Of a DNA stretch of 64,000 bases, positions 18,488 to 28,283 are shown one piece after another. Origin of the DNA: Ferruginibacter sp. (GTDB lineage Bacteria > Bacteroidota > Bacteroidia > Chitinophagales > Chitinophagaceae). The position numbers and the translations under genes are program-made. Location of the stretch: assembly GCA_019638525.1 (NCBI GenBank), contig JAHBTO010000002.1, positions 248,001-312,000 of the forward strand, in the 5' to 3' direction. The notes beneath the pieces were generated by a model. The model had not been told where the DNA came from, ran no database searches, and saw nothing but the letters and a program-made list of their open reading frames with translations. Numbering within the stretch: position 1 is the stretch's first letter; each line of letters starts with the position of its first letter.

Positions 18488-19255
18488 TTAATACTTATAA
18501 AAATCTTTCATCCTATTGATAAAGTATTCTTTTTTTCGCCGGCTTACTTCCACTTCATGTCCATTGGTTAAAAGTACCGAACCACCTTCGCCTCTGAGGT
18601 ATTCTTTAACATGCTCCAGGTTTATCACAAAAGATTTGTGTATCCGCACAAAGCCGGCATCTTCCAGCAGGGTTTCAAATTCATGAATGGGTTTGCTGGC
18701 GCAAATGATGGGGCGGTCGGTAAAATGAAAATTAGTATAGTTGCTGCTGGCTTCGCAATAAATAATATCCGACAACTTTACTACCTGAAACCCTTTGAGC
18801 GAAGGAATACAAATTTTTAATTTTTGCCCGTTTTCCCTGCTTTGCAAATTATGCAACAGGGTTTCTATGCTATTGCCCGATGTTTTATCGGCAATCCTTT
18901 GCGTTGCCCGCATTACGGCTTCCACCAGTAGCGAATCATCAACCGGTTTCAACAAATAATCTACGGCACTAAATCGAAATGCCTGCAGCATAAAATCGTT
19001 GTGTGCCGTTACAAAAATTACTTCAAAACCCCGATTGCCCATTTCGCTGAGCAAATCAAAACCACTTTTTTGCGGCATGGATATATCCAGAAAAAGCAAT
19101 TGCGGCTTATGCAGGTTAATTTGAATAATAGCGTCGGCAGCACTTTCGCAGGTAGCAACAATTTGCACCTGCGGACAATTGTACTCCAGCAGTTTTTTTA
19201 AAGACGATAAACCCCTGGGCTCATCATCTACCAATATGGTTATTATTTTTTCCAT
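18488..19255 (-). CDS. LytTR-family response regulator
   Basis: Transcription regulator of 255 residues. The receiver domain (1-120) has the acidic pocket Asp10/Asp11, the phosphoacceptor Asp57 in LLFLDISMPQKSG, Thr in FVTAHND and the conserved Lys in DYLLKPVDDSLL. The LytTR DNA-binding domain fills the C-terminal part (about 150-255: SDIIYCEASSNYTNFHF, FVRIHKSFVINLEHVKEY, EVEVSRRKKEYF). The ATG at 19255 is one base after the kinase stop, so the two are co-translated partners. A pair of perfect LytTR-type repeats lies in front of the kinase gene and the divergent S74 operon. Confidence 0.94.
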   Translation of the reverse strand: MEKIITILVDDEPRGLSSLKKLLEYNCPQVQIVATCESAADAIIQINLHKPQLLFLDISMPQKSGFDLLSEMGNRGFEVIFVTAHNDFMLQAFRFSAVDYLLKPVDDSLLVEAVMRATQRIADKTSGNSIETLLHNLQSRENGQKLKICIPSLKGFQVVKLSDIIYCEASSNYTNFHFTDRPIICASKPIHEFETLLEDAGFVRIHKSFVINLEHVKEYLRGEGGSVLLTNGHEVEVSRRKKEYFINRMKDFYKY

Positions 19256-19256
19256 G

Positions 19257-22200
19257 CTAATTGATATCAATAGGTAATTGAATGCGTACTAATGTGCCTT
19301 GTTGGTTGCCACCCGCCAGGGTGCCTTTGTCCAAAATATCCACTATACAATTGAGTTTGTGTTTTTCATTGAGCAGGTGAATGCGGTTTTTTATATTACT
19401 GATGCCATGCGAACGGTGTAACTTATCGCTTATGCTACGGTTGTTTTGCGAAGCGGCTAACCCAATACCATTATCATCTACCGTGCAAATAAGGTAGGCG
19501 CCATCCCGGGCAAAGCGAATGTTGATATGAATTTTTTTATTAGCTGCGGTAATGCCATGCCACAAACCGTTTTCAATAAAGGGTTGCAGCAGCATAGGTG
19601 GTATCAATGTATCATCCACATCCAACTGATCATCCATGCTGATGGAAAAACTGAACTGGCTGTTTCGTATTTGCTCCATTTCCATATAGCGCTGCAGGTA
19701 GTCGATGGTATTGCGCAGCGAAACAAAGGATTGGGTAGATTGATCGAGTGTGATGCGAATTAAATGCGCAAACTTACTGAGGTAGTGTGATGCATCTTTG
19801 TTTTCATTGTTCAAAATCATTTCCCGGATGCTGTTGAGACTGTTGAAAATAAAATGCGGATTCATTTGCGCCTGCAAGGCTTTAAGCTCCGTTTGCGAAA
19901 GCTGACGATCTAATTCGGCTTTTTGCGTAATGGCATTTTCACGCCGCTTGTAAAAATAATGCACTGCAAAGGCAATCAACAAAACGGATATCGTAATAAA
20001 CCATCCTGTATTCCAAAAGGGCGGATTGATGATAAAGGAAATCCGTTTTATTTTTTCCCTGCCCGAACTGCCGGAAGCCCTTATTTCCAGATGATAGGTA
20101 CCAGGCATCAGGTTATTAAAGCTAAGGCTGCGCTGGTTACCCAGTGGCGACCATGTTACGGCATCATTGAGCCGATAGGTAAATTGATAATTGCTGTTTT
20201 CAAAATCAACCACCGCATAGCGGAAGGTCAGGTTTTTTTCGTTGTGCTTTAGCCGGATGACCGTATCGGGATTGTACCAAATTTTATTTTCACCGGCACT
20301 TACTTCTTCAATTTTTAAATCACTGCCATATAAAGTACTCTTTTCCGGGATAAAAGGAAAACGGATTAACTGTTCATTATAACCCAGAAACAAATAACCG
20401 GAAACACTGTCGAAATAAATTTTTCGGGATGATGGCTTGTGTACGGGTAAGCCATCCCTGTAGTCGAAAAGTGTTACCTGCTTGCTGATGATATCAAATA
20501 AATACAGGCTGTTGTTGGTAGCGGCCCATAATTTATTGTACATAATTGGGCTCATGGCATTGATTAAATCGGAAGGCAAACCATTTTTAATAGAATAACT
20601 CACAAACTGCTTTTGTTTTATTTTGTACTCCAACAATCCATTAAAAGCATTATGAAACCATAGGGAGCCCTTATTATCGGCTCGTATAACCAGGATATCG
20701 TCATTAAATTTTCCTTCACCAGCATAAGTGGTAATAAGGGTATCAAAGCGCTGCAATTGATTATTGAATCGGGCAAGCCAATGGCCGGCCACCCACACAT
20801 CGCCATAAGCATCGTAAACAATATGCTTTACTTTATCAAAGGGCAGTGCAGGCCGGGTTTGGGATGTAAACAGTGTAAACGATCGGGTGGGTATATGATA
20901 GCGTAATACTTTGCCCCCCAATACCGAGCACATCCATGCATATCCATCCTTGCGTGCCGGGGCAAGTGAAGCTGCAAAATCATAAGCCCATGGATATTTT
21001 TTTTCATCGAGCACTTTACCGTAATGCTGTGTTTTTGTATCTAACCACAATATGCCTTTGCTGGTACCAATCCACAATGTATCGGGATGATACATTTCAA
21101 TACTGCGCACTTCATTCCACCCCGACTTTGTAGAAAAAAAATCAATCTCCTGCTCCAGCTTCATGGTTTTGGGGTTAATGATGGATAGCCCCTTGCTTTG
21201 TGAAAAGCGGCCTGCATACAATTTATCCCTGTAGCGATACATGGCGCTAAAACCGCCACCATGCTTTACAGCATTGGAAGGGGTATAATGCCAGGACTGA
21301 ATAAAGGCTTTTTGCAGTTCCTGTTTCAGCAAGCCTTCGGTAGTGCCAAGCCATAGCCTTTTTTCTTTATCTAAAAATAGGCAGCGGATTTTATACTTCG
21401 GTAAAAACCTTTGCGTTAGGACTTCAATCTTTCCGGTACCCCTATTAATTTTCAATTTAAAAAAACCATGCGTACTGCCACTCAGTAATAAGGTAGAATC
21501 ATTTATCAATAATAATTTGCTCTCCCAGTTTATAGAGTCTGAAACAGAAATTGGGATTTTTGAAATAGTTGCTTTATTTAGTGCAGTATTATAATGAATA
21601 ATTTGTCCTTCGGAAGTTCTTATAAAAATAATTTCATGATTACTTATCTGTTGCTTCACAGCCCAGTAATTTGCGGGTGCAATAGGCCATTTGTATTTGG
21701 AAAAAATCAACGAGTCTTTAATAGTAAGTTCCTTATATTGTTTACTTTCAGTATCATAAGTAGCTAAACCGTCTTCATTAATATACACGGCATATTGGGA
21801 TGCTGATAGTTTTATTATATCTCTCCCATACAGGATGCGTTTTTTTCCAACATCATCAACATGAAAAGCATCATGCCTAAAGCGCAGATGAGCATCCTTA
21901 TCAAAAAGATAAAAACCGGCAGCGCTGGTAATGGCAAAAGATTTATCCGGCATTTCTATGGCATCCCATGTGGCATTATAATGTATGCTCATGGCGGAGT
22001 TATCTTTAATAGCATACAACTTTGCATTATAATTATTGGTATTAAGTACAAGCAACCCTGCCCTGCTGAGTATCCCAAGCCTGCCCGAATCAAATTGCTT
22101 TAGCCGCCCAATGCTCATGGTGGGCAAATAAAGTGGAGCCGTGCCTCTGAAATAATTTTTAAAGCTATTGCCATCAAACCGGCTAAGGCCGGCATCGGTG

Positions 22201-22379
22201 CCTATCCATAAATCCCCCTGCGCATCCTGAATAATACAGTTAATATCATTATCGCACAGGCCGCTTTGCGAAGTATAACGCACAAATTCATTATCGGCAT
22301 ATTGTGCCTTTACATACTCCCGCTGCATACAAGCCACGATAAGCAGTATTACTATTTTATGTATTCCATGCATCCGCAT
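19257..22379 (-). CDS. Propeller-containing sensor histidine kinase (LytS/His_kinase type)
   Basis: Membrane sensor of 1040 residues. It has a signal peptide (to about residue 25), then a periplasmic beta-propeller of regulator-propeller repeats (CIIQDAQGDLWIGTDAGLSRFDG, CLFLDKEKRLWLGTTEGLL, ADNKGSLWFHNAFNGLLEYK), a Y_Y_Y domain (about 690-780), one membrane helix (GWFITISVLLIAFAVHYFY), a His_kinase domain with His842 in QMNPHFIFNSLNS, and an ATPase domain (VDDNGIGLAASQ, then HRSHGISNIKNRI). Such kinases signal to LytTR regulators, here the next gene. It lacks a fused receiver or AraC domain, so it is not a hybrid HTCS. The stimulus is unknown; the divergent surface-protein operon is the likely target. 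Confidence 0.94.
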   Translation of the reverse strand: MRMHGIHKIVILLIVACMQREYVKAQYADNEFVRYTSQSGLCDNDINCIIQDAQGDLWIGTDAGLSRFDGNSFKNYFRGTAPLYLPTMSIGRLKQFDSGRLGILSRAGLLVLNTNNYNAKLYAIKDNSAMSIHYNATWDAIEMPDKSFAITSAAGFYLFDKDAHLRFRHDAFHVDDVGKKRILYGRDIIKLSASQYAVYINEDGLATYDTESKQYKELTIKDSLIFSKYKWPIAPANYWAVKQQISNHEIIFIRTSEGQIIHYNTALNKATISKIPISVSDSINWESKLLLINDSTLLLSGSTHGFFKLKINRGTGKIEVLTQRFLPKYKIRCLFLDKEKRLWLGTTEGLLKQELQKAFIQSWHYTPSNAVKHGGGFSAMYRYRDKLYAGRFSQSKGLSIINPKTMKLEQEIDFFSTKSGWNEVRSIEMYHPDTLWIGTSKGILWLDTKTQHYGKVLDEKKYPWAYDFAASLAPARKDGYAWMCSVLGGKVLRYHIPTRSFTLFTSQTRPALPFDKVKHIVYDAYGDVWVAGHWLARFNNQLQRFDTLITTYAGEGKFNDDILVIRADNKGSLWFHNAFNGLLEYKIKQKQFVSYSIKNGLPSDLINAMSPIMYNKLWAATNNSLYLFDIISKQVTLFDYRDGLPVHKPSSRKIYFDSVSGYLFLGYNEQLIRFPFIPEKSTLYGSDLKIEEVSAGENKIWYNPDTVIRLKHNEKNLTFRYAVVDFENSNYQFTYRLNDAVTWSPLGNQRSLSFNNLMPGTYHLEIRASGSSGREKIKRISFIINPPFWNTGWFITISVLLIAFAVHYFYKRRENAITQKAELDRQLSQTELKALQAQMNPHFIFNSLNSIREMILNNENKDASHYLSKFAHLIRITLDQSTQSFVSLRNTIDYLQRYMEMEQIRNSQFSFSISMDDQLDVDDTLIPPMLLQPFIENGLWHGITAANKKIHINIRFARDGAYLICTVDDNGIGLAASQNNRSISDKLHRSHGISNIKNRIHLLNEKHKLNCIVDILDKGTLAGGNQQGTLVRIQLPIDIN

Positions 22380-22481
22380 TTGCCGGTTAAATTGTTTGAA
22401 TAAAATTAGAATATATACGGCTCAAAAAATACAGGTAAAAAAAGAGCCATCGCTGCTTCCGTATTTCATCATCCAAAAGCC

Positions 22482-22511
22482 ACCGTTTGTTGGGGCCCCA
22501 ATACCGTTTAG
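22482..22511 (+). promoter_or_regulatory. LytTR-type direct-repeat binding site
   Basis: ACCGTTTGT (22482-22490) and ACCGTTTAG (22503-22511) each fit the published LytTR repeat consensus [TA][AC][CA]GTTN[AG][TG] at all nine positions. The 12-base spacer puts them 21 bp apart, two helical turns, which is the reported geometry. The spacer region also contains the palindrome TTGGGGCCCCAA (22490-22501). A promoter-like AT run (near 22524-22540) follows, so the site would sit just upstream of a promoter for the S74 operon. It could also serve the kinase gene on the other side. No experiment supports this; the match is by eye. Confidence 0.72.
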
Positions 22512-22641
22512 GAATTGCTGCCCTACATATATTTTTTTTATGCATTTCCGAATACATAAACAAAGCCGCCGTTGGCAAATAGCCGCTACCCCAACCTATT
22601 GGCGCATACTAATTTTACATCGAAATAATTAAAGTATAGCC

Positions 22642-23772
22642 ATGAAAAAATATTTTTTAATACTTACAGCTGCAGTAGCCTGTAGCCGGTTTGCTGCCGC
22701 ACAAAATGTAGGCATAGGAACCAATAATCCGTTCCGTGCAAAACTGGAAGTACACGGAGCCGTTGGAGCCACATCTGCCATCTTTGGAGGCGAAGGACAA
22801 GGTATTTCTTTGCAAAGAAATTTTCCATCAATCGGCTTTAACCAATTCTATGGCGACATGAGCCGTCATATGGCAACAGGATACTCAGCCGTTCAATACC
22901 TGGATCCGTGGCTTGGGTATATGGCCATTGATATGCTGGGTACAGGTGATGCTTATAATTATGCAGGTCCTAATATCAGGGCCATTACCATCAATAAAAA
23001 TGGAAATGTTGGTTTCCGGAGCAACGGTGCTGCCAATACCAGCCTGGTAGTAGAGCGGGCAGAAAATACAGAAGGCACGGCGGCATTTTGGGGTTCAAGG
23101 CACATCAGTTGGTTCAATTACGGTGCCCAGGAGAATACTTATATAAGAGCAGGTAAAGACAACGGCAAGGTTTATATTAATGATATCCCGGGTTCCAAAA
23201 TAGCCATGTACGGCTTTGTGGGTGTAAACACCGATAACCCTACATTCCCGCTGGAAGTTCGTCAGCCTGCAGGTACCGGCGATAAAGGACTGGGGCTCTT
23301 TAATCCGAATATCAACCAGAGCTGGGAGTTACGTGTAACCCAGGCTCAGGGTGTGTTGAATATGTATCATACCGGTTCTTATGTGTCTTCTTTTAATCAG
23401 TGGGGCGTATACTCTTATGTATCGGATAAGCGACTCAAAAAAAATATTACAGCACTACCGACCATACTTTCCAAAGTACTACAGCTGCAACCGGTAGCAT
23501 ACAATATGATTGATGAACAAAATGCAGAAAATAAAAACCTGGGCTTTATTGCGCAGGATGTACAGCAGCTTTTCCCTCAACTGGTTTCAACACTTTCCGA
23601 TTCGGCAAGTGGGCACAAGGGAATGAACGATGTGCTTACCGTTAACTACGATGGCTTTGGCATACTTGCCATAAAAGCCATACAGGAGCAACAACAAATG
23701 ATTGTATCGCTAACACAAAAAATGGAAAGCCTGCAACAAGAAATCAAAGCTCTAAAAGCTGGTAAAAAATAA
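22642..23772 (+). CDS. Secreted fibre-like protein with S74 endosialidase chaperone domain
   Basis: 376 residues with a signal peptide (ends SRFAAAQ). The body (22-255) has repeated VGIGTNNPFRAKLEVHG-type segments (also NVGFRSNGAANTSLVVERA and FVGVNTDNPTFPLEVRQ), typical of Bacteroidota cell-surface tail-fibre-like proteins. The C-terminal intramolecular chaperone begins at SDKRLKKNI, with Ser261 and Lys266 at the spacing of the autocleavage dyad of phage endosialidases. It continues through GFIAQDVQQLFPQLV and ends in a trimerising coiled coil (QMIVSLTQKMESLQQEIKAL). It is expected to fold as a trimer and release its last 115 or so residues. First gene of the operon after the LytTR site; the function is unknown, possibly adhesion. 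Confidence 0.85.
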   Translation: MKKYFLILTAAVACSRFAAAQNVGIGTNNPFRAKLEVHGAVGATSAIFGGEGQGISLQRNFPSIGFNQFYGDMSRHMATGYSAVQYLDPWLGYMAIDMLGTGDAYNYAGPNIRAITINKNGNVGFRSNGAANTSLVVERAENTEGTAAFWGSRHISWFNYGAQENTYIRAGKDNGKVYINDIPGSKIAMYGFVGVNTDNPTFPLEVRQPAGTGDKGLGLFNPNINQSWELRVTQAQGVLNMYHTGSYVSSFNQWGVYSYVSDKRLKKNITALPTILSKVLQLQPVAYNMIDEQNAENKNLGFIAQDVQQLFPQLVSTLSDSASGHKGMNDVLTVNYDGFGILAIKAIQEQQQMIVSLTQKMESLQQEIKALKAGKK

Positions 23773-23804: not shown

Positions 23805-24143
23805 ATGAAACGCATAACCATAATATTAATGGCAGCATGTACCGCCCTGTTGATGGTTTATTGCAAACAGCAGGGGCGAAACCCACAACCATTGCCGCAG
23901 GAAGAAATGGTGCAAACCGGCTTCATTGCACAGGAAGTAGAGCAGGCAGCCCAACAGACAGGTTACCATTTCAGCGGAATAGACAAACCAAAAAATGAAA
24001 ATGATTTATATGGTTTGCGGTATGCAGAATTTGTAGTACCACTGGTAAAAGCCGTACAGGAACAGCAAGCACTGATTGAGAAACTCTCTAAAAAAGTTGA
24101 AACGCTGGAGGGATTAACCCATTTATTGAAATCAAAAAAATAA
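23805..24143 (+). CDS. Lipoprotein with only the C-terminal half of an S74 domain
   Basis: 112 residues. The signal peptide MAACTALLMVYCKQQG carries a lipobox-like cysteine. The mature protein starts almost at once with GFIAQEVEQAAQQTGYHF, then LRYAEFVVPLVKAVQEQQ and a coiled coil (ALIEKLSKKVETLEGLTHLL). This matches the second half of the S74 chaperone in the preceding protein, including the polar segment absent there, but the Ser-Lys cleavage motif and the fibre part are missing. It is 32 bases after the S74 gene. It may be a membrane-anchored partner for the chaperone trimer or a decayed duplicate; the intact lipoprotein signal argues for use. Confidence 0.75.
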   Translation: MKRITIILMAACTALLMVYCKQQGRNPQPLPQEEMVQTGFIAQEVEQAAQQTGYHFSGIDKPKNENDLYGLRYAEFVVPLVKAVQEQQALIEKLSKKVETLEGLTHLLKSKK

Positions 24144-24164: not shown

Positions 24165-24563
24165 ATGAAAAAGCACCACTCAAAAATGACCATATGGATG
24201 GCTACAATCATTTTGTTGTTGGCATCCTGCAAAAAAGAAAATGATACTCCAAAATTTTCCGCCACCGGTTATTGGACAGGCAAGGTTTACCTGTACAATG
24301 CGGTATTAGTAAACAGTAGTAATGGCGAATCAAAATTTTATGCGGGCATTACAAATAATGATACTGCTACTGCACTACTAAAACTGGCTGGACAATTTCA
24401 GAGTAATGAAAACCATTTTGAAGCGAAATACTATGTAGGGAATGATGACACGGCCTATCTGAAGACTGAAATGGTACAGTACGAGTGGATGAAGGGCCAG
24501 TACAGAACTAAAAACACACCCGGCGTTAGTTTTCCCTTTGACTTTAAAAAGGATGATAAATAG
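24165..24563 (+). CDS. Small lipoprotein, function unknown
   Basis: 132 residues with a lipoprotein signal ending LLLASCKKE. The mature part is beta-rich: TGYWTGKVYLYNAVLVN, FYAGITNNDTATALLKLAG, ENHFEAKYYVGNDDTAYL, EWMKGQYRTKN. The pattern resembles other short Bacteroidota lipoproteins that begin with a TGxWxGxY motif and may form a small barrel, but I do not recognise a named family. It lies 21 bases after the half-S74 gene and 36 before the DUF3455 gene, in the same operon. Confidence 0.7.
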   Translation: MKKHHSKMTIWMATIILLLASCKKENDTPKFSATGYWTGKVYLYNAVLVNSSNGESKFYAGITNNDTATALLKLAGQFQSNENHFEAKYYVGNDDTAYLKTEMVQYEWMKGQYRTKNTPGVSFPFDFKKDDK

Positions 24564-24599: not shown

Positions 24600-25217
24600 A
24601 TGTACAAACAATTATTAAGAAACCAACCATTTTATTTTCTCCGTTTCCTCCTGAGTCTTGCATTGATTACAGCCTTAATAGCTTCATGCAAAAAAGATGA
24701 TGCAGATGACAAGGATTTGCCCGCTTACCATATTTCAAAGAGTGAAACACTAACCATCCCTGTTGAAGTGGAATTGCCGGACAATCCTCCTTCCGGCAAT
24801 GCAAGGGTGGCCACTTATTATGCCAAAGGCGTGCAGAAGTACAAAGCACAATTAAAGGCAGGCGGTGGTTATGAGTGGGTATTGGTAGCCCCCCATGCAG
24901 ACCTATTTAATAGCAATAATCAAAAAGTGGGCTTTCATGGTGCCGGCCCGGTATGGACCATTACCAGTGCCGATTCCATTTTTGCACAGCATTTTGCCCC
25001 GGCCCGCACGGCCACTCCCGATGCCAACAGTATTCCCTGGTTGTTGCTAATGCCCAAGACAGGAAAAACGCCAACCGGAATTTTTGCCGACGTGGATTAT
25101 ATACAGCGCATAGCTACCACAGGCGGCAAAGCTCCGGTAACCCCTCCACAAACTGCTACCGACACAAAGGATGTTTTTTATACCGCCATTTATCGGTTCA
25201 GTAAAAGAATTATATAA
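24600..25217 (+). CDS. DUF3455 domain lipoprotein
   Basis: 205 residues, lipoprotein signal ending LIASCKKDD. The mature region fits DUF3455: GVQKYKAQLKAGGGYEWVLVAPHADL, then KVGFHGAGPVWTITSADSIF, the run IPWLLLMPKTGKTPTGIF and DYIQRIATTGGKAP. The final strand FYTAIYRFSKR is also typical. The biochemical role of DUF3455 proteins is not established. Here it is the fourth gene of an operon made mainly of exported proteins. Confidence 0.8.
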   Translation: MYKQLLRNQPFYFLRFLLSLALITALIASCKKDDADDKDLPAYHISKSETLTIPVEVELPDNPPSGNARVATYYAKGVQKYKAQLKAGGGYEWVLVAPHADLFNSNNQKVGFHGAGPVWTITSADSIFAQHFAPARTATPDANSIPWLLLMPKTGKTPTGIFADVDYIQRIATTGGKAPVTPPQTATDTKDVFYTAIYRFSKRII

Positions 25218-25233
25218 CCAATTCTATTAAAAC

Positions 25234-26553
25234 ATGAAAAATTTATTTTCTAAAACAATGAAGCAATATGTAGCCCTCTTGTATGCTGCTTTAGTTATTT
25301 CGGTTTTGTTTGCTTCCTGCAAAAAAGATAATAATAGAGGAACAATACCCGACCTGCCCCAAAAAATAACCTACACAGGCAGCACCGATCCATTAAGCGA
25401 AGGCAGGTCGGACATGCAGGTTTATCAAACAGGCAATTATACCTGTTTTACCAGAGGTAGCATCTATTCACTTTCCAATAATACATCATGGAGCAGTAAT
25501 ACAGATGTATATAATAAACAAACGGGAAACTGGAGCCGGTTTGGGCTAAGCGTAAAAAGAGATAAATATGCCGCAGCGGCGTTTAACAATAAACTGCTTA
25601 TTGCTGGCGGCGTAAACACAAACAATACCTATTCTGCTGTAACAGATATTTTTGATTTGGCAACCGGCCAGGCAACCACCACACAGCTATCGCAACCCCG
25701 TGGATTTTTAGCAGCAGCAGGTGCAGGCAATAAAATTTTGTTTGCCGGTGGACACCTTGCTAATAATAAAGTATCTGCAAGAGTTGACATTTACAATACC
25801 CAAACCGGGCAATGGACCATTGACAGCCTGAGCCTGGCAAGGAGCCAACTTGTTGCCGGTGTAGTAGGCAATAAACTTGTATTTGCAGGTGGCGTAGCGC
25901 AAAACAGTAATGGCGAAGGCTACTACAGCAACCGTGTGGATATATACGATGTGCAAACCGGGCAATGGACTCAGGCCACGCTTAGTCAGCCAAGAATAAC
26001 TTATTATCCGACGAAAGTAGTAACTGCGGGTAATAAACTCCTGTTTATAGGCGGTGCCACTACTCTTAATTACGAAACAGTTGATGTATTTGATGCACAA
26101 ACCAACCAATGGACATCCATCAACTTAACCGGCAACACAATCTTTTATTCTATAGCTTGTACAAATGGCTCTCATGTTTTTATAACGTCCGGTTCCGGCA
26201 TCACTTTCTATTTCACAAGGCTGCATATTTATAATGCACAAACCGGCCAGGTGAATTCGGTTCCATTACCGGAACCCATAAGAGGCTTGAACATGGCAGC
26301 CATAGAAAATAAAGTAGTAATAGCAGCCGGCTTTATAAATAATCAAATTACCGACAAAGTATTTGTTTATGATATACAAACCGGCCTGTTTGATACCACC
26401 GGCTTTAAACTTCCCCAAAGGAAAATAGATGTAACTGCTGCCAGCGCCGGCAATAAGTTCCTTTTTGCAGGTGGGCTTATAGATGAGCAGCCTGCGGGAC
26501 AGCCAAGACGGGTAGAAAACTTTAAAACCGTTTCTGTATTTGAACTAAAGTAG
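25234..26553 (+). CDS. Kelch-repeat lipoprotein
   Basis: 439 residues with a lipoprotein signal (LFASCKKDN). The rest is about seven Kelch-type blades of 45-50 residues with the repeated core FAGG/VDIYNxQTGQW: NKLLIAGGVNTNNTYSAV, NKILFAGGHLANNKVSA, NKLVFAGGVAQN, NKLLFIGGATTLN and NKFLFAGGLID. This would be a beta-propeller on the outer side of a membrane, probably for binding. Unlike the NanM-like protein in the sialate locus it lacks the permuted mutarotase layout. It lies 16 bases after the DUF3455 gene. Confidence 0.82.
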   Translation: MKNLFSKTMKQYVALLYAALVISVLFASCKKDNNRGTIPDLPQKITYTGSTDPLSEGRSDMQVYQTGNYTCFTRGSIYSLSNNTSWSSNTDVYNKQTGNWSRFGLSVKRDKYAAAAFNNKLLIAGGVNTNNTYSAVTDIFDLATGQATTTQLSQPRGFLAAAGAGNKILFAGGHLANNKVSARVDIYNTQTGQWTIDSLSLARSQLVAGVVGNKLVFAGGVAQNSNGEGYYSNRVDIYDVQTGQWTQATLSQPRITYYPTKVVTAGNKLLFIGGATTLNYETVDVFDAQTNQWTSINLTGNTIFYSIACTNGSHVFITSGSGITFYFTRLHIYNAQTGQVNSVPLPEPIRGLNMAAIENKVVIAAGFINNQITDKVFVYDIQTGLFDTTGFKLPQRKIDVTAASAGNKFLFAGGLIDEQPAGQPRRVENFKTVSVFELK

Positions 26554-27500: not shown

Positions 27501-28283
27501 ATGAGCACAAAACAAGTTCAGGGTACCCTGTGGAGTACCGCCCCCAATCATTGGTCCACATTTTTTGAACCCTTTTTTCTACCGTTGTACAAAAAAACAT
27601 TAGCAGCGTTTGCTTTGCAGGAAGAACATTCTTTATTGGATGCAGGTTGCGGCGCCGGTATGTTTAGCCACATGGCCATCAGCACCGGTGCACAGGTAAT
27701 AGGTATTGACGCTGCACCCGGCTTATTGAAACTGGCAAGAGAAAGAAACCCCGGGCATAATTTTTTGGAAGAAGACCTGGAAGCCCTGCCCTTTAAAGAT
27801 GAAACCTTTGACTTTGTAACCGGATTTAACTCCTTTCAATATGCAGGCAGTTTTTCCAATGCCCTTGCCGAAGCAAAAAGGGTATTAAAAACAAATGGTA
27901 AGATGGTGATATGCATTTGGGACAAGGCCGAAGCAAGTGAAGCTACCACGGTGTTAAAAGCCATTGGCTCATTACTGCCACCACCACCACCCGGCACACC
28001 CGGCCCCTTTGCGCTATCCGAAGATGGAAAAGTAGAGCAGGTGTTGCAATCGCTGAACCTTAAACTCATCAGTAAAGAAAGAGTGAGTTGCCCCTTCTTA
28101 TACTATTCACACGGCGATGGCATCAAAAGCTTTATGAGTACAGGGCCGGCTGCATCTGCATTAAACTTTGCTTCCAAAAAACTGGTGGAGCAATCCATTG
28201 CCGAAGCATTAAAGCCTTACCACCTTACAGAAGATTTATATTATTTGCAAAACAGCTTTTTGCTTTTTCTTGTAGAGAAATAA
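27501..28283 (+). CDS. SAM-dependent methyltransferase (class I)
   Basis: 260 residues, no signal peptide, so cytoplasmic. The SAM-binding motif I is LLDAGCGAGMFSHMA (about 45-59), followed by the acidic loop VIGIDAAPG, motif LEALPFKDETFDFVTGFNSFQYAG and the post-motif AKRVLKTNGKMVICIWDK. A proline-rich loop (LLPPPPPGTPGPF) lies before the C-terminal cap, which probably selects the substrate. The gap of 97 bases before it is the largest in this operon, so it may have extra control. It is the last gene before two hairpins. The methyl acceptor is unknown. Confidence 0.85.
   Translation: MSTKQVQGTLWSTAPNHWSTFFEPFFLPLYKKTLAAFALQEEHSLLDAGCGAGMFSHMAISTGAQVIGIDAAPGLLKLARERNPGHNFLEEDLEALPFKDETFDFVTGFNSFQYAGSFSNALAEAKRVLKTNGKMVICIWDKAEASEATTVLKAIGSLLPPPPPGTPGPFALSEDGKVEQVLQSLNLKLISKERVSCPFLYYSHGDGIKSFMSTGPAASALNFASKKLVEQSIAEALKPYHLTEDLYYLQNSFLLFLVEK

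Follow-up and report, generated by a model that had tools for sequence, protein, structure and literature searches.

A putative LytTR operator of two tandem box pairs between a propeller kinase/regulator gene pair and a divergent operon of exported proteins in Ferruginibacter

Results

We analyzed a 64-kb stretch of a Ferruginibacter sp. contig (64,000 nucleotides, hereafter the window) in which a gap of 262 bp separates the gene of a propeller histidine kinase from a divergently transcribed operon. Judging from sequence comparisons, this gap is very probably the operator-promoter of the divergent operon, bound by the neighboring LytTR regulator with activation as the net effect. Four boxes in two pairs, their spacing, their orientation, and their links to one clade of regulators and to a promoter-like element can be read directly from the aligned gaps. 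An earlier note on this DNA had placed a LytTR site between the propeller kinase/LytTR pair and an operon of exported proteins and had proposed that it links a sensor to a concrete target; the gene layout proved to be as described, and the comparative data support a LytTR operator acting on the divergent operon.

The regulatory genes are as follows.

18488-19270, minus strand: response regulator with receiver and LytTR domains, 260 aa when counted from a TTG (an ATG five codons in is the likely start)
19257-22379, minus strand: histidine kinase with signal peptide, Reg_prop propeller, Y_Y_Y and His_kinase regions, 1040 aa

Both regulator domains scored above the Pfam cut-offs (Response_reg 72.3 bits, LytTR 64.3 bits). 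The kinase has the features of a LytS-type propeller kinase, with Reg_prop (64 bits) and His_kinase (PF06580, 79 bits) above cut-off, while its Y_Y_Y and HATPase_c matches were weak and below it. Since its partner is a histidine kinase, the regulator does not belong to a LytTR Regulatory System, which has a membrane inhibitor and no kinase.

LytTR proteins are known to read 9-bp direct repeats that are separated by a 12-bp spacer and lie immediately ahead of the -35 element (PMC6193735). The repeats ACCGTTTGT (22482-22490) and ACCGTTTAG (22503-22511) have this 12-bp spacer, lie exactly where the earlier note had put them, and both match the LytTR consensus [TA][AC][CA]GTTN[AG][TG] in full. The pair WMMGTTNRK-N12-WMMGTTNRK is unique in the window (both strands; dinucleotide shuffles expect 0.02), and a version with a 13-bp spacer does not occur there. 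In the 3.4-Mb genome, the consensus pair matched 5 times and its reversed control 10 times, so there is no genome-wide enrichment; only the pair at 22482-22511 is intergenic, with the remaining four of the five matches within open reading frames. Because the reversed control outnumbers the motif, a full consensus match is by itself weak evidence. The interest of the pair comes from its position beside a LytTR gene, and it is the comparative evidence that carries the case.

The earlier note had suggested aligning the same gap in related genomes. Two loci, L036 (kinase 61% and regulator 75% identical to those of the window) and L040 (58% and 76%), keep both the divergent gene order and boxes with a 21-bp period. 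The outcome that the note had named as refuting, loss of the repeats from relatives with this gene order, was checked in this way and did not occur. The three-gap alignment contained three conserved boxes, at window positions 22479, 22500 and 22565, a pair 21 bp apart and, 65-66 bp beyond it, one more box. Neither relative matches the strict 9-mer in both repeats, with a deviation in at least one repeat in each, but the geometry is kept; relatives retain the GTT core and often depart from the published consensus. The spacer of the distal repeats also holds TTGGGGCCCCAA, a perfect 12-bp palindrome at 22490-22501 that had been singled out as a feature and could in principle be a second operator or a part of the site. 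We give that reading almost no probability, since the palindrome is missing from L036, L040 and the other gaps, and perfect palindromes of 12 bp occur 27 times in the window; TTGGGGCCCCAA carries no weight and was rejected as a functional element.

We also performed an unsupervised motif search (12-bp expectation-maximization with no prior, both strands) on 22 gaps upstream of orthologous kinase/LytTR pairs in Chitinophagaceae. The search returned a single 12-bp box, RCCGCCGTTNRT, which reached a log-likelihood of 109.7, whereas 20 sets of shuffled gaps averaged 48.9 (sd 3.3, maximum 57.1). Leave-one-out scans at a threshold of at least 8 bits gave 42 plus-strand sites and 1 minus-strand site, and 21 bp was the commonest distance between sites. 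The top site in the window was 22565-22576, which is also present in L036, L040, L039, L126, L127 and others. When 13 loci were aligned on this main box, the best secondary offsets in the position weight matrix (PWM) were -66, -21 and -87, pointing to two pairs with a 21-bp period, which in the window are the boxes at 22479/22500 and 22544/22565. The period equals a 9-bp core plus a 12-bp spacer, and the pairs are 66 bp apart. Scores below are from a PWM trained without the window.

22479-22490, plus strand: distal box 1, GCCACCGTTTGT, which contains the repeat ACCGTTTGT; 15.5 bits; aligned copies with equal spacing in L036 and L040
22500-22511, plus strand: distal box 2, AATACCGTTTAG, which contains ACCGTTTAG and starts exactly 21 bp after distal box 1
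22525-22543, no strand: AT-rich tract between the box pairs; AAAATTTT-like tracts are aligned in many of the 13 loci
22544-22555, plus strand: proximal box 1, ATTTCCGAATAC, degenerate, 21 bp before the proximal main box
22565-22576, plus strand: proximal main box, GCCGCCGTTGGC, the best-conserved box; 16.7 bits
22610-22617, plus strand: -7-like element, TAATTTTA, 45 bp after the start of the proximal main box

Distal box 2 is weaker than the box at 22479 and deviates from the 12-bp motif in its 5' part; in the 13 loci, the offset of its counterpart relative to the proximal box is -66/-65. Proximal box 1 keeps a CCGnAAA core at offset -21 across the same loci. Since the conserved box is 12 bp long, the distal site is better given as 22479-22511. 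The repeat pair first noticed at 22482-22511 is real, yet it covers just the distal half of the predicted operator, and the best-conserved box, at 22565-22576, had been missed. Several loci (L133, L135, L139 and L140) have a different layout, a 26/21/21 array.

The AT-rich run had been taken for a promoter, a reading we rejected: the run sits between the two pairs, and a conserved -7-like element is found instead at 22610-22617. The element TAATTTTA is an imperfect match to the Bacteroidota consensus TAnnTTTG, while its counterpart in L036, TACTTTTG, matches in full. TAnnTTT occurs at +44/+45 from the start of the main box in the window, L036, L039, L040, L126 and L127, and TAATTTCA-type elements occupy the -7-like position in other loci. 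The Flavobacterium -7 box, TAnnTTTG, extends from -12 to -5 (PMC9723704), and on that basis transcription is predicted to start near 22622. Relative to this predicted start, the proximal pair is centered at about -62 and the distal pair at about -127, which places the operator just upstream of the target promoter. The proximal pair ends 33 bp before the -7-like element, a distance that is fixed across loci. Inspection of the window showed no -33 TTG at the spacing expected for one, as would suit a promoter that depends on an activator.

We then scored loci that had been chosen by regulator similarity and kept out of training, with the PWM trained without the window; 27 gaps were usable. The best site was on the plus strand in 26 of the 27 (p 4e-7, an optimistic value because the loci are related), and 23 exceeded their own shuffles at 0.05, leaving 4 without a significant box. 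The summed best score was 348, compared with 133 for the control (sd 15, maximum 174), and plus-strand sites outnumbered minus-strand sites 42 to 4. The 21-bp distance was found 20 times and the 65/66-bp distance 11 times, whereas 2000 random placements never gave more than 5 and 7, respectively. Regulator clade and neighborhood descend together, so the loci are not fully independent, but the effect goes far beyond what relatedness-inflated p values cover. Together, the aligned boxes, the 21-bp and 65-66-bp spacing in orthologous gaps and the success of the held-out prediction refute a chance match to the consensus, which the lack of genome-wide enrichment had favored and which is now vanishingly improbable.

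The gap is common to two divergent promoters, a minus-strand -7-like TAATTTTA occurs near 22408, and LytTR operons are often autoregulated (PMC6193735). The boxes might therefore be LytTR operators that mainly repress, or that mainly autoregulate the kinase/regulator operon. We consider this unlikely. The best site faces the divergent gene in all 22 training gaps, where both strands were searched, as in 26 of the 27 held-out loci; the link of 44-45 bp is to a -7 element facing that gene, and no fixed link of the boxes to the kinase promoter was seen. Moreover, the proximal boxes lie upstream of the divergent promoter and not over it. These data favor activation of the divergent operon.

Because the boxes are tied to the regulator by neighborhood, they could also be the sites of some other DNA-binding protein, one with S74-type operons as its targets, and adjoin the LytTR gene by chance. 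This is very unlikely in our view, as the CCGTT core, 9-bp boxes and 12-bp spacer are a LytTR signature, and the LytTR protein AlgR binds CCGTTCGTC (PMC4064291). The boxes also follow the regulator where the divergent genes differ (as in the L133 group, where they encode Tim44-like and HYR-type proteins). Finally, the three other S74 genes of the genome have no comparable box pair upstream, and just one of them has a single site, of 12.1 bits; a general S74-gene motif was rejected on this ground.

Within the 64 kb, the only intergenic sites of at least 9 bits were those at 22479 and 22565. The genome has 8 other LytTR loci, with regulators 25-44% identical, and no intergenic site of at least 12 bits was present at any of them. 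The lack of such sites at these loci and of a comparable box pair at the three other S74 genes indicates that the boxes track this regulator clade. No second target was found in the genome by two-box scans allowing at most 2 mismatches, in which the control equaled the real count and almost all matches were in open reading frames; a candidate at G000:C23:434818 was rejected because it lies within coding sequence. Separately, we observed that, of the genome's four S74 domains, three have a LytTR gene no more than 7 kb away (G000: C12:271422, C1:645786, C12:487552), which suggests a wider LytTR-S74 association that uses other motifs.

The divergent genes are listed below.

22642-23772, plus strand: exported protein with Peptidase_S74 (endosialidase chaperone; PF13884, 58 bits), first gene of the predicted operon
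23805-24143, plus strand: small lipoprotein-like protein, 112 aa, with only the end of an S74-type C-terminus (S74 sub-threshold in Pfam)
24165-24563, plus strand: exported lipoprotein-like 132-aa protein of the target operon; its orthologue (71% identity) is encoded first in the divergent operon of L036
24600-25217, plus strand: DUF3455 protein (Pfam) of the target operon
25234-26553, plus strand: Kelch-repeat exported protein (Pfam) of the target operon; 83% identity in L036, 60% in L184
26573-27403, plus strand: exported alpha/beta hydrolase (Pfam), probably in the same operon
27501-28283, plus strand: methyltransferase (Pfam), probably in the same operon; 92% identity in L036, 75% in L040

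In many genomes, S74 genes lie divergently beside kinase/LytTR pairs of this clade. The product of 23805-24143, which directly follows the complete S74 gene, is 70% identical to the C-terminus of S74 proteins in relatives and 64-71% identical to full S74 proteins elsewhere, and looks like a detached or duplicated S74 tail. L036 and L040 share divergent DUF3455 and methyltransferase genes, and L036 additionally has the 132-aa and kelch genes; the alpha/beta hydrolase gene was not found in either. S74 itself is missing from L036 (9557-9915) and reduced to a short remnant in L040 (1868-1969), while the operator and the remaining operon persist. S74 is therefore not a constant part of the target, and the first gene of the operon turns over. 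Further relatives were found for the 132-aa protein (L184) and the methyltransferase (near L180, L182, L186, L194 and L196), and the DUF3455 gene is conserved in L036, L040, L180, L183, L186, L192 and L195; relatives of the S74, DUF3455, kelch and methyltransferase genes are divergent to the same regulator clade in other genera.

Three side observations concern the same neighborhoods. At the first divergent position, L128, L132, L133, L135, L137, L139 and L140 have a recurring protein of 150-172 aa (MKxSWxxLKISIAGAxLSHLVQKxxIWDHG) with a weak Tim44-like match; several of these loci have the 26/21/21 box spacing. Beyond the divergent targets, L127 (4394-7302) and L133 (2517-5427), from two different genera, carry a two-component pair of the NarL type and a small thiol-disulphide-like gene that are perhaps part of the same island. 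Within the window, the final part of the DUF3455 gene contains a strong box, ACCGCCATTTAT (25182-25193, 15.8 bits), roughly 50 bp ahead of the kelch gene, which may be a chance occurrence or an internal site.

Discussion

We propose that the periplasmic propeller kinase would sense a signal and phosphorylate the regulator, which in its phosphorylated form would bind the box pairs as dimers. The proximal pair (22544/22565, near -62) would recruit RNA polymerase to a promoter that has no recognizable -33 box, and the distal pair (22479/22500, near -127) would raise occupancy, perhaps by way of the AT-rich tract between the pairs. The outcome would be activation of secreted and surface proteins. 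We infer binding, its dependence on phosphorylation, activation and the roles of the distal pair and the AT-rich tract from the arrangement of the DNA.

A LytTR operator is a known kind of element. In open-access text, we found no report of a Bacteroidota LytTR motif, of this clade's box, of the double-pair layout or of the target module, nor a paper naming both LytTR and two-component regulator propeller. On balance, it seems probable that a Chitinophagaceae clade of propeller-kinase/LytTR systems controls a recurring secreted module (S74 adhesin-like, DUF3455, kelch, methyltransferase) through a private operator in which two tandem 21-bp pairs, 66 bp from each other, flank an AT tract, with regulator and DNA code fixed while the sensor diversifies. 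Across loci the regulator is 50-76% identical, whereas identity of the kinase falls to 28-61%, so a reporter built on one operator could be used for many sensors. Bacteroidota contain many pairings of a Reg_prop kinase with a LytTR regulator; the present analysis supplies one clade of them with a specific DNA code, a promoter layout and a recurring set of targets, so that gel shifts can test the regulator and a reporter can be used to search for the stimulus.

Several known systems share parts of this arrangement. BtsS/BtsR and YpdA/YpdB of E. coli likewise combine a LytS-type kinase with a LytTR regulator, and their narrow target motif is conserved and has been followed across species (PMC5552118), but they are membrane-embedded pyruvate sensors with transporter targets and no propeller. 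Systems of the HdrRM/BrsRM type have the same 9-bp direct repeats, 12-bp spacer and fixed short distance to the promoter (PMC6193735); they consist of a LytTR regulator and a membrane inhibitor and are autoregulatory, in contrast to the propeller kinase, receiver-LytTR protein and divergent operon described here. The core bound by AlgR of Pseudomonas aeruginosa, CCGTTCGTC, nearly equals the CCGTTNRT of this clade (PMC4064291), yet AlgR sites are often single and lack 12-bp-spaced direct repeats, whereas here the 21-bp period dominates. In the agr P2/P3 region of S. aureus, the LytTR regulator AgrA also reads direct repeats, in two pairs within a divergent intergenic region, and its promoter-proximal repeats center near -60 (PMC4227749), compared with about -62 predicted here. 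At agr, the two divergent promoters have one pair each, while in Ferruginibacter both pairs face the same gene, are 66 bp apart, consist of a 12-bp GC-rich box and precede a Bacteroidota-type promoter.
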